42,744 bases of DNA from Acidithiobacillales bacterium SM1_46 (lineage in GTDB: Bacteria; Pseudomonadota; Gammaproteobacteria; Acidiferrobacterales; Sulfurifustaceae): positions 1-42,744 of the forward strand of contig LJVB01000024.1 in assembly GCA_001304215.1 (NCBI GenBank). The letters run 5' to 3'. The first letter of the stretch is position 1. Every line of letters starts with the position of its first letter. Positions 37,120 through 42,115 of this stretch are shown piece by piece. The notes under the pieces were generated by a model that did no database searches, was not told the DNA's origin, and saw only the letters and a program-made list of their open reading frames with translations. Made by a program: the position numbers and the translations under genes.

Positions 37120-40100
37120 TTAACCCGCCGCGAGTTCGCGCCGCTCGTAGAGGAAGTAAACGAGCGGGATCACGAACAGCGTCAACACTGTCGAGGCGAA
37201 CGTGCCGTAGATGAGCGACACGGCGAGGCCACCAAACACCGGGTCGAAGGCCATGATTAGCGTACCAAGTATGATCGCCGCGGCGGTCAACATGATGGGA
37301 CGCAGGCGCGTGACACCCGCTTGCAGGACGGCCTCGTCGAGCGCATGACCTGCACGGCGGTACTCGAGAATAAAGTCAATCAGCAGCAGCGAATTCCGAA
37401 CCACGATGCCAGCCAACGCGATCACGCCGATCATCGAAGTGGCGGTGAAATACTGGCCCATGATGGCATGTCCGGGCAGCACGCCGACCACCGTAAGCGG
37501 GATTGCCCCCATGACGATCAACGGAACGGCAAACGACCGGTAATAGCCGACCAGTACGAGATAGATCAGGATGATCGCGACGCCGAAGGCGGCGCCGAGG
37601 TCGCGGAACACATCGAGCGTGAGACGCATTTCGCCGTCCCAGCGCACGCTATACCCGGTTGTATCCGGGTCAGCCATGAAATACTGCGTGAGCTTCACAT
37701 CGTCCGGCAACTGGTTGGCGCCCAGCCAGCGCCACATTTTGAGCACTGCATACACCTGGCTGGTCGTGGCGAGCTCGCCGGTAACGTACACCACCGGATA
37801 CTGGTCCTTGTGCAGGATCGGTTTCGGCGCGGTAACGCGCTTGATCCGGGCAATGCTGGAGAGCGCCACCTGGCGGCCCTGCGGTGTCGTGAAGAACACC
37901 CTGTCGAGATCAGCGGGGCTGCGGCGACCGGAGGTCGGGATCCGAAAGCGAATTGGCACCGGCTCCTTTTCAAGCTCGAGGTGCACCGTGGTGACATCCA
38001 TGCCGGCGAGGAAAGCGTGCAGCGTCTCCGCGACCTGCGCCGGCGCGATTCCGGCCAGCATGGCTCTTTCGCGATTGATCACTATGTCGTATTCAACGTG
38101 GTCGTCAGTGACCGAGTCGTCGATATCGACAACGTCGGGAGTTTTCGCGAAGACCTCGCGCCGCAACTTGCCTGCGATCTCTCGCAGCCGTTGGTAGTCT
38201 GGACCATACAGCTCTGCAAGGATGGTGGCACGTACCGGCGGGCCGGGCGGATCCTCGACGACCTTGATATTGGCCCCGGTCTCGGTTGCAAGCCGCGCGA
38301 GCGGCGCACGCAGCGCGAGCGCAATGTCGATAGAGGAGGTCCAGCGATCATGCTTGTTGCGCAGATTGACGCGCACGTCCGCCACGTTCGGTCCCCGGCG
38401 CAGCCCTGCGCCGCGCAGCAGACCATTGAAGTCCACCACTCCTGACTCACCGACCGTGCTCTCGTAGGTCTGGACATGCGGATTGGCACGCACCACATCT
38501 CCCACCAGGCGGGCCACGCGATCGGTTTCCTCCAGTGGCGTTCCCTCGGGCATGTCGATCGTGACATTGAAGGTGTTGGTGTTGTTCTTGGGCAGCATTT
38601 TGAACTGCACCAGATTGAACGCCGGTAGCAGCATGACGGCGAGCATCAATGCCCCAATACCCCAGAAGAAGCGCACCCGTGCACCGCGCTGCGAGAGCAA
38701 CCGGCGCAGGAGCGGCTCGTAGCGCATCTCGAGCCAGCCGCGGCCATGGTGCTCCACCCCCTCATGTTCGTGGCCGCGTACCTTGAGAAAACGATACGCC
38801 GCCCAGGGCGCGACGGTATAGGCGATGGCAAGCGAGGTAAGCATCGCAATCGGAACGTTGAATGGAATCGGGGCCATGTACGGCCCCATCATCCCTGTGA
38901 CCCACAACATCGGCAGGAACGCCAGGATCACGGTAAAGGTGGCGAGATTGGTTGGTTTGCCGATCTCGTTGACCGCCAGCACGGCGTGTTTCAGGCGATC
39001 GATCCCGTTGCGTGCGTAGTGGCGGAAGATGTTCTCGATAACGACAATCGAATCATCCACCAGCAACCCCAGTGACAGGATGAGTGCGAACAGTGTGATT
39101 CGATTGATGCTCTGGCCAGCGATCAGGCCGACCGAGAGAGTGATGAAGAGGATAAGAGGGATGGTGACGGTCACGATCGACGCCGCGCGCCAGCCAAGAA
39201 AAAGCACGAGCAGTGCGACCACTGTGGCAATGGCGATCGCGAGATGTTCCATCAGTGTGTTGACGGCATCGTTCGCCTTGGCGCCATCGTTGCGCGTGAC
39301 GTTGACGTCAATACCAGCCGGGATAACGCTTGCTCGCACGCTCTTCAGCTCGGCAAGCACGTTGTCGGCAACGGTCACCGCGTTGCTGCCGGCCCGCTTG
39401 GCGATCGCAATCGTCACGGCCGGCACTTCGAAGTCCGGCGGCCGCTTTCCATCGAACGCCGGCCCATAGCCGATGCGGTGAACTCGCTCGGGTTCGCCGT
39501 AGCCGTCGATGACGCGGGCTACATCCTTCAGGTATACCGGACGGTGCGCGGCCAGCGCTACGACGAGACTTGCGACGTCCCCAGCCGTTTTGAGCGCGCC
39601 GCCGGCCTGGACGGTGGCCATGCGGTTGTCGGAAATGAAGCCACCCGAGGGGATGTCCACGTTGGTCGCCTCGACCACACGGCGGATATCGGCGAGCGTG
39701 ACGTTATAGCGGTGCATGCGCTCGAGATCGAGATAAACGTTGATGCGCCGTGGTTCACCACCGTGCAGGAACGTGAACGACGTATCCTCGACCCGCCGCA
39801 AATGCTCGAGCACGTCGCTAGCAATGCGCCGGAGCGTGCAGGGATCGCGTTCGCGGCAGGAAAGCGAAATCGTCAGGATCGGTACATCATCTACATCGAC
39901 CGGCTTGACCAGCGGTTGTTGGGTGCCCGCCGGCATGCGGTCGATGTTGCTCATGATCTGGTTGTAGAGCTTGACGAGCGAGTCCTCCTTGTCCTGCCCG
40001 ACCTTGAACTGCACCGTGACGACGCCAAGTGAATCCATGGCGATGCCGTAGGTGTGGTCGATGCCCGCCATTCCCTGCAAGATGGCTTCGAGCGGCTTGA

Positions 40101-40335
40101 CGATGAGCTGCTCGATCTCCGTAGGCGAAGCGCCCGGCTTGCTGATCATCACGTTGGCCGCTGGCACCACGATCTTGGGGTTCTCCTCGCGCGGCGTGAC
40201 GAGGAACGCGAACAAGCCGGCGAGGAAAGCAAACAACATGATCAGCACCGTGAGCTTGCTGTCGACGAAATATGCCGCGACCCGCCCGGCGAGATTGAGC
40301 GGGCTGTCAGGGGATGTGCGCTGCTTGCTAGCCAT
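37120..40335 (-). CDS. RND-family efflux transporter permease (AcrB/CusA-like)
   Basis: 1071 aa; PGASPTEIEQLIVKPLE, TM4 relay GLLVDDSIVVIENIFRH, repeated RND topology. Confidence 0.95.
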   Translation of the reverse strand: MASKQRTSPDSPLNLAGRVAAYFVDSKLTVLIMLFAFLAGLFAFLVTPREENPKIVVPAANVMISKPGASPTEIEQLIVKPLEAILQGMAGIDHTYGIAMDSLGVVTVQFKVGQDKEDSLVKLYNQIMSNIDRMPAGTQQPLVKPVDVDDVPILTISLSCRERDPCTLRRIASDVLEHLRRVEDTSFTFLHGGEPRRINVYLDLERMHRYNVTLADIRRVVEATNVDIPSGGFISDNRMATVQAGGALKTAGDVASLVVALAAHRPVYLKDVARVIDGYGEPERVHRIGYGPAFDGKRPPDFEVPAVTIAIAKRAGSNAVTVADNVLAELKSVRASVIPAGIDVNVTRNDGAKANDAVNTLMEHLAIAIATVVALLVLFLGWRAASIVTVTIPLILFITLSVGLIAGQSINRITLFALILSLGLLVDDSIVVIENIFRHYARNGIDRLKHAVLAVNEIGKPTNLATFTVILAFLPMLWVTGMMGPYMAPIPFNVPIAMLTSLAIAYTVAPWAAYRFLKVRGHEHEGVEHHGRGWLEMRYEPLLRRLLSQRGARVRFFWGIGALMLAVMLLPAFNLVQFKMLPKNNTNTFNVTIDMPEGTPLEETDRVARLVGDVVRANPHVQTYESTVGESGVVDFNGLLRGAGLRRGPNVADVRVNLRNKHDRWTSSIDIALALRAPLARLATETGANIKVVEDPPGPPVRATILAELYGPDYQRLREIAGKLRREVFAKTPDVVDIDDSVTDDHVEYDIVINRERAMLAGIAPAQVAETLHAFLAGMDVTTVHLELEKEPVPIRFRIPTSGRRSPADLDRVFFTTPQGRQVALSSIARIKRVTAPKPILHKDQYPVVYVTGELATTSQVYAVLKMWRWLGANQLPDDVKLTQYFMADPDTTGYSVRWDGEMRLTLDVFRDLGAAFGVAIILIYLVLVGYYRSFAVPLIVMGAIPLTVVGVLPGHAIMGQYFTATSMIGVIALAGIVVRNSLLLIDFILEYRRAGHALDEAVLQAGVTRLRPIMLTAAAIILGTLIMAFDPVFGGLAVSLIYGTFASTVLTLFVIPLVYFLYERRELAAG

Positions 40336-40382: not shown

Positions 40383-40736
40383 CTACTGTTTGCGAATCGG
40401 CCGACCGTCATACAGGCTGATGAGTTCGCCCAGCACAATGGTTTCGTTACCGGTGAGGCCGCTAAGGATTTCAACTTCGTTTGCGCCAAGGGTTCCGCCC
40501 GGCTTGATCATTCGAAACCGCGCGAGCCCGCCATCCAGCACATAGACGCCGGTGATGCCGGCGCGCTCAACAAGCGCGGCACGCGGCACGCGCGTCGGGA
40601 GCTCACCCCGCAGCGTAATCACCGGACGTTCGACGGGCTGTGCTTGCTCGATGGGGCGCGGCACCGGGTCGCTACACGCCGCGAGCGCCGCCGCACCAAC
40701 CAGCACGAGAACGCGCGAAATGCGTCTGGCGATCAT
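40383..40736 (-). CDS. Truncated RND membrane-fusion (adaptor) lipoprotein lacking hairpin/lipoyl/barrel domains
   Basis: 117 aa; lipobox LAAC then ERPVITLRGE, running straight into a C-terminal adaptor-like domain (VPRAALVERAGITGVYVLDGGLARFRMIKPGG...EVEILSGLTGNETIVL). Lies between TolC and RND genes. Confidence 0.75.
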   Translation of the reverse strand: MIARRISRVLVLVGAAALAACSDPVPRPIEQAQPVERPVITLRGELPTRVPRAALVERAGITGVYVLDGGLARFRMIKPGGTLGANEVEILSGLTGNETIVLGELISLYDGRPIRKQ

Positions 40737-42115
40737 GGCTGTGGCTCTCCGGGTGGTGTGAAGGCTCCCTGTGCCAGCGCAAGTGCCGCCTGGCTGACTT
40801 CGAGGCTCAGACGCGCACCGAGCTCTTCGTTGCGCGCCTCCACCAGCGCGCGTTCGGCCTGTAACAGATCGATCAGGATGGTGCGACCCTGCCCATAGCG
40901 TAGCTGCACCTGGCGGACTGTTTCCCGGGCGCGTTCGACGTTACCGGTCGCAATTTCGTGCCGCTCGCGCGCCTCGCGCAGCGCCTGGTAGGCATCGCCC
41001 ACCTCCTGGCGCACGCTCTGAGTACGCGCCTGCACCTGCCACTCCGCCCGTTTGGCCTCCGCCGCGGCGGCAGAAACGCCCGCGCTCGCCTGGCCGCCGG
41101 AGTAGAGATCAAGTGCCACCACGCCCATGACGCTGTTCGAGCTATCGTTGGCATCGCCGTTGTCGAAACGATTGTGCGTCGCGACCAGGTCGACTTGCGG
41201 GAGGTGCGCGGCACGCGCCGCATCGACCTGCGAGCGGGCCGCGAGCTGCACGGCCTGCGCAGCGGCGAGGTCCTTGCGCCGGGCCAGCGCCGTTTGTTCG
41301 AGCGTTGCCGGCTCGGCAGGCTGCGGCGGCATCGAAACGCTACTGCCCGGGTAGGGCGTCACCGACGGCTCGACCAACGGCGGCAGGCCCATCACGCGAG
41401 CCAGCTGATGACGCGCCCGTTCCAGACGTGTGCGCGCCTGCGCGCGAGCTGATTGCATGGCTGCGAGATTGACCTCTGCGGTGAGCTTGTCCGAGGAGAC
41501 GATGCGTCCTTCGCGCGCAAGGCGCGCGGTAGTGTCTGCATGCTGAGTCGCCGAGCCAACCGCATCCTCGGCAATGATGAGTCCCTGCTCGGCGAGTTGC
41601 ACATTCAGATACGCTTGCAGGCAGTAAAACGCCGTGAGCTCGCGCGCCCGTTCAAACTCAAGTTGGGCAGCCTTGGCCATCTCGGCTGCGCCCTCTGCCT
41701 GTGCACTCACGCGCCCGCCGGTATAGAGCGACCAGCGCAACCCCAACTGCCCCAGGTAGAGCTCCCGATACCCGGGATTGTTTAGCCGCGCGGGATCGAA
41801 GTCCTGCGCCGTGACGCTGCGGGTATTGAGTCGGCCGGCGAAGGCATCGAGCGCATTGTTGCTGCTGCTCGCGCTCAGGTTCAATCCAAGTTGCGGCAAT
41901 TGCGCGCCACGCGCGGCATCGCGCCGGCTGCCGGCGGCGGCGGCTTGCTCGCGCATGCCAAGCAGATCAGGGTTGTGCTCAAGAGCGTAGTGAATTGCCT
42001 GTTCGCGGGCGAAGACCTCGGCGTGCGCAGGTGCCGCAAGCAGACTCAGGCCGGCTGCGATCACCAGACCGCGCAGCAGCAAAGAACGTTCCCGTCTCGG
42101 TATCGATTCTCGCAT
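40733..42115 (-). CDS. TolC family outer membrane efflux protein
   Basis: Signal peptide LLLRGLVIAAGLSLLAAPAHAE; two TolC repeats (AIHYALEHNPDLLGMREQ; QVQLRYGQGRTILIDLLQAERALVEARNEE). ATG 42115 (MRESIPRRERS) preferred over 42187. Confidence 0.93.
   Translation of the reverse strand: MRESIPRRERSLLLRGLVIAAGLSLLAAPAHAEVFAREQAIHYALEHNPDLLGMREQAAAAGSRRDAARGAQLPQLGLNLSASSSNNALDAFAGRLNTRSVTAQDFDPARLNNPGYRELYLGQLGLRWSLYTGGRVSAQAEGAAEMAKAAQLEFERARELTAFYCLQAYLNVQLAEQGLIIAEDAVGSATQHADTTARLAREGRIVSSDKLTAEVNLAAMQSARAQARTRLERARHQLARVMGLPPLVEPSVTPYPGSSVSMPPQPAEPATLEQTALARRKDLAAAQAVQLAARSQVDAARAAHLPQVDLVATHNRFDNGDANDSSNSVMGVVALDLYSGGQASAGVSAAAAEAKRAEWQVQARTQSVRQEVGDAYQALREARERHEIATGNVERARETVRQVQLRYGQGRTILIDLLQAERALVEARNEELGARLSLEVSQAALALAQGAFTPPGEPQP

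Follow-up and report, generated by a model that had tools for sequence, protein, structure and literature searches.

A conserved adaptor of tolC–RND operons, apparently reduced to its membrane-proximal domain

The small adaptor gene and its domain content

The stretch of DNA analysed here (the window; 42,744 bp) is a complete contig (C59) of a 2.6-Mb draft genome that is 91% complete. Three consecutive genes lie on its minus strand, in the order tolC (40733–42115), a small adaptor gene (40383–40736) and an RND transporter gene (37120–40335). The tolC/OMF gene, the start of which was taken as the ATG at 42115, matches PF02321 (E = 1e-49). The 1071-aa transporter, described as apparently intact in a first-pass annotation made from the letters alone, is indeed complete (PF00873, ACR_tran; E = 1.4e-165) and retains the proton relay residues (D427, D428, R980, R1010/R1012 and T1017), which, together with the PF00873 match, assigns it to the AcrB-type (HAE-type) family; the relay residues are conserved across the RNDs that accompany homologues of the small adaptor. 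The adaptor gene itself is, as that annotation had it, a clean ORF encoding only 117 aa, with an ATG start, which overlaps the stop codon of tolC in the tetranucleotide ATGA at 40733–40736 and is separated from the RND start by 47 bp.

The product of this gene, hereafter the mini-adaptor, begins with a lipoprotein signal peptide (residues 1–21; 40674–40736, minus strand) ending in the lipobox ALAA/C, the cysteine of which (Cys21) occupies an invariant column of the homologue alignment A1. Residues 22–46 (40599–40673, minus strand) comprise a linker and, by comparison with full-length adaptors, a putative N-terminal strand of the membrane-proximal domain (MPD; VERPVITL); P33 and R37 of this segment are nearly invariant among homologues, and the segment ends at a junction where ∼230 residues of the full-length adaptors are missing. 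Residues 47–117 (40386–40598, minus strand) correspond to the C-terminal part of the MPD. Sixteen columns are invariant among 23 homologues, far beyond what is expected by chance.

From about residue 49 onward, the only portion of adaptor profiles that the mini-adaptor matches is the membrane-proximal one at their C-terminal end. The TIGR01730 (RND_mfp) model is matched at positions 254–320 of 322 (E = 5e-6), with 25.7 bits against a cut-off of 94.9, and no Pfam model is matched above its cut-off; falling below both the Pfam and the NCBIfam cut-offs, such proteins are probably annotated as hypothetical lipoproteins. When a profile of 23 mini-adaptors was searched against the PDB, the best match was the MPD of the TriA–TriB fusion adaptor (E = 1.6e-9), followed by MexC-like, MexJ, ZneB, SilB, AcrA, MacA and MexA adaptors, each near the C-terminal end, with the matches ranked below ZneB being weak. 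Profile–profile alignment (hhalign) against 14 full-length adaptors established the same identity, pairing mini-adaptor columns 43–122 with adaptor columns 282–361 (probability 99.6, E = 1.6e-23). The beta-barrel, lipoyl and alpha-hairpin domains precede column 282 of the full-length profile and hence lie outside the alignment; moreover, the lipoyl, HlyD_3 and HlyD_D23 models, for which a full-length sister adaptor scores, gave no match to the mini-adaptor. The first-pass view of a lipoprotein signal running into the MPD, with the three other domains absent, is thus well founded.

Upstream of the junction, the homologues share a conserved LPxLxRPVxxL stretch. The MPD is assembled from elements of both chain ends, N- and C-terminal (PMC8277102, PMC4446572), and since the stretch is correctly positioned to provide the N-terminal strand, we infer that it does so. 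An AlphaFold2 model, built from a six-row alignment of the mini-adaptor with the C-terminal stretches of L036–L040, reached a pLDDT of only 48 and was discarded, so that the fold assignment rests on sequence profiles. On that basis, the mini-adaptor almost certainly represents a conserved class of adaptors predicted to consist of the MPD alone.

Distribution, selection and descent

Taken alone, the window could be accommodated by a recent in-frame deletion, a decaying gene or an assembly error, for which the short length of the frame is the only argument. The first-pass annotation had left the choice between an internal deletion and a genuine miniature adaptor class undecided, suggesting a search for miniature homologues beside RND genes and holding that its reading would fall if close relatives had a full-length adaptor here. 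Such homologues turned up in 45 genomes, spread over eight families of the class, always in the arrangement tolC–mini-adaptor–RND, with tolC directly upstream on the same strand at 45 of 45 loci; the single-contig assemblies G002, G003, G004 and G036 are among them. No full-length adaptor occupies the locus in relatives: in a search for the RND among 60 related genomes, with the upstream regions read, every ortholog of at least 59% identity with upstream sequence available was preceded by a mini-adaptor, whereas RNDs with no more than 53% identity adjoin adaptor frames of 348–420 aa.

An order-wide profile search (57 genomes) recovered the mini-adaptor in 39 of the 40 genomes that have the RND ortholog and in no others, the sole exception being G019, in which the contig starts inside the RND gene. 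Bit scores separated mini-adaptors (115–164) cleanly from full-length adaptors (<40); the mini-adaptor of G012 appeared as a split match due to an insertion, which adds ∼20 residues within the MPD (L017). A class-wide search (369 genomes) yielded six additional mini-adaptors in other orders (G281, G353, G249, G144, G292 and G178), each after a tolC and beside an RND of 65–71% identity, and a phylum-wide sample of 399 genomes contained no further ones. In plasmid records, only RNDs of <60% identity were detected, and matches to the mini-adaptor covered the C-terminal part alone, three of the four lying under annotated adaptor genes. Several other candidates were rejected, namely, L036–L038 (Acidobacteriota), which are ∼510-aa adaptors in ABC (MacB-type) operons; L039 and L040, which are four-domain adaptors with a same-locus RND of only 40%–42% identity; and L124, a short adaptor frame cut off by the contig end.

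In a maximum-likelihood tree of 55 RNDs, the 36 rows served by mini-adaptors fall on one side of a single branch (SH-aLRT 100), a grouping not equalled in any of 500 shuffles, and this clade adjoins RNDs served by four-domain adaptors with frames of 348–420 aa. Pairwise dN/dS amounts to 0.10–0.36 for the mini-adaptor and 0.06–0.18 for the RND; the former thus evolves faster, yet remains under purifying selection. Confinement to one ancient clade, purifying selection and presence in 45 genomes, single-contig assemblies included, refute the possibility of a local deletion, decay or assembly error. Of the two original options, the miniature class accordingly stands, and the deletion survives only in the sense of one ancestral event. 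Given that the mini-adaptor-served RNDs form one clade next to those with four-domain adaptors, the simplest reading is that the three inner domains were lost once, in an ancestor, and that vertical descent and, perhaps, transfer followed. The domains of adaptors are nested, with the MPD outermost, followed by the barrel, the lipoyl domain and the hairpin; consequently, removal of a single internal block is enough to yield a self-contained MPD with its lipid anchor.

Mini-adaptors range in length from 114 to 149 aa, compared with ∼350–400 aa for canonical RND adaptors. Some variation around this pattern was observed. The frame in G017 (L042) is only 88 aa long and lacks a signal, possibly owing to a frameshift in the draft genome. 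The lipobox cysteine has been lost in L121–L123, so that not every member depends on a lipid anchor; in L122 and L123 the signals resemble the ordinary cleavable type. In G031 (L022), the ∼640 bp between the mini-adaptor and RND genes contain an inserted ORF, which we take to resemble a DUF559-type nuclease.

Other adaptors, the RND partner and possible function

An unlinked full-length adaptor, for which the first-pass annotation had also proposed to look, could in principle serve the mini-adaptor pump. A full-length adaptor profile run on 16 mini-adaptor genomes revealed no dedicated partner of this kind in the genomes checked. The window genome encodes MacA-type adaptors on contigs C155 and C165, an ABC-linked one on C58 and another on C101, and no AcrA-type four-domain adaptor was found in it with this profile. 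The five other adaptors of the single-contig G004 are all beside their own transporters, and the two detected in G281 both belong to metal-type RND operons.

The window genome (G000) also contains further unusual loci. Contig C14 (L055:1376–3525) carries tolC and a 252-aa MPD-less adaptor, with lipoyl, hairpin and barrel, which ends after the beta-barrel and has no adjoining transporter gene. The adaptor has seven orthologs in the order, and its family is present in six mini-adaptor genomes (that of the window and five others) as well as in G028 and G023, both without a mini-adaptor; the other mini-adaptor genomes of the order have no close match. A second reduced adaptor, on contig C75 (L057:1743–2429), is a lipoprotein of 229 aa that has the beta-barrel and MPD but neither a lipoyl nor a hairpin domain; it lies beside its own RND, and a further 11 genomes of the order contain orthologs at 50%–62% identity. 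Finally, contig C98 (L058:1639–6218) encodes a tolC–RND pair without an adjoining adaptor gene, which is kept in the single-contig genomes G002, G003 and G004 (L172, L173 and L174), with the RND ∼78% identical.

These observations bear on what we regard as the main rival explanation, a split adaptor, in which the MPD comes from the mini-adaptor, and the barrel, lipoyl and hairpin domains are contributed in trans by an adaptor from another locus, either full-length or MPD-less. The C14 adaptor with its TolC and without a transporter, conserved in five other mini-adaptor genomes, would be a candidate, other adaptors available in the mini-adaptor genomes could likewise help in trans, and exchange between pumps is possible, as in the case of AcrA and AcrE (PMC8934357). 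However, the C14 family is missing from most mini-adaptor genomes and present in two that lack the mini-adaptor, and a co-occurrence test gave no support to the pairing; furthermore, the other adaptors of G281 and G004 sit in operons or beside transporters of their own. A split adaptor thus appears rather unlikely, although sharing of the adaptor of another pump with the mini-adaptor-served RND cannot be excluded.

Alternatively, the mini-adaptor might no longer be an adaptor of any sort, having been re-used as a small periplasmic lipoprotein that delivers substrates, acts as a sensor or helps to assemble the pump. The lack of all TolC-contacting parts and the loss of the lipid anchor in L121–L123 would be compatible with such a change, but the MPD sequence is strongly kept, as judged from the hhalign match above, and the gene is always found between tolC and RND, as expected of an RND-binding subunit. 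We therefore consider re-use of this kind improbable and favour, with moderate confidence, a conserved MPD-only adaptor inherited together with one RND clade and its TolC and acting as an RND-bound subunit.

Lacking the barrel, lipoyl and hairpin domains, the mini-adaptor cannot form a hexameric tube, from which a role as an RND-bound activator or gate is inferred. It would occupy the site that AcrA and CusB engage through their MPD, on the porter domain of the RND next to the membrane, and would activate the transporter or control which substrates enter, without building a tube to TolC; TolC might then dock directly on the RND funnel or, alternatively, the pump might act mainly within the periplasm. 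Known properties of the MPD provide the background to this proposal: it touches PC1/PC2 of AcrB and has an influence on channel 1/2 substrates and on substrate access (PMC8934357), and it is required for pump function (PMC8277102). The alpha-hairpin is the part that contacts TolC (PMC3807786). The largest surface buried between AcrA and AcrB is contributed by the beta-barrel, on the funnel hairpins (PMC6975555), and for this reason an isolated MPD may bind weakly.

With regard to the RND itself, an insertion replacing the adaptor was not supported, the mini-adaptor-clade RNDs being slightly shorter in residues than those of the sister group. Nor was relaxed constraint on the docking region observed: DN stands at 0.88 of its own mean in the mini-adaptor clade and at 0.75 in the sister group, with approximate docking-domain boundaries. 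Relative to the remainder of the protein, this region is thus no less conserved than in the sister group, which fits continued docking of something on the RND, and this, together with the lack of an insertion, is only weak and indirect support for a mechanism that remains unproven. In the absence of experiments, both binding and a role in efflux are inferred, and the odds that the mini-adaptor binds the RND as an activator or a gate for substrates, TolC being placed on the RND, seem evenly balanced. That this RND–TolC clade works without any adaptor tube, the MPD alone being kept as activator or substrate gate, is a tentative suggestion to which we give somewhat less credence.

Relation to known adaptors

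In reviews, the adaptor tube is credited with sealing and bridging tripartite pumps, and it is left undecided whether the MPD serves as a spacer or participates in cargo selection and presentation (PMC4446572). An MPD kept alone by evolution cannot be the spacer for an absent tube. Retention of the MPD without a tube therefore makes the mini-adaptor clade a system in which the role of this domain can be tested apart from the other domains, and if the pump indeed operates without a tube, the essential role of the MPD would lie in the transport cycle rather than in spacing.

Within the open-access literature (subscription papers were outside the scope), no account of an adaptor made of the MPD alone came to light; the nearest case is BesA. 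With the canonical RND adaptors (AcrA, MexA, TriA/TriB, CusB; TIGR01730), the mini-adaptor shares the MPD sequence, the lipoprotein export signal and an operon with RND and OMF genes, but it lacks the beta-barrel, lipoyl and hairpin domains and scores far below the family cut-off (25.7 versus 94.9 bits). BesA of Borrelia burgdorferi is likewise a reduced adaptor, the RND pump of which has been reported to be functional, challenging the hairpin-tube model; direct docking of TolC on the RND has been discussed for BesABC (PMC3807786), and the same arrangement is inferred for the mini-adaptor pump. The mini-adaptor would extend this challenge to models that require adaptor hairpins to join pump and TolC. 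However, BesA lacks the hairpin only and keeps the lipoyl, barrel and membrane-proximal domains (PMC3807786), whereas the mini-adaptor keeps the MPD only. Because the lipoyl and barrel domains are absent as well, the mini-adaptor falls outside the definition of BesA too and, as far as its predicted domain content goes, should be called an MPD-only variant derived from RND adaptors. As in adaptors of the EmrA and DevB type, the subset of domains is matched to the type of transporter, but in those adaptors the MPD is missing and the other domains are kept, which is the reverse of the mini-adaptor (PMC4158417, PMC8277102).
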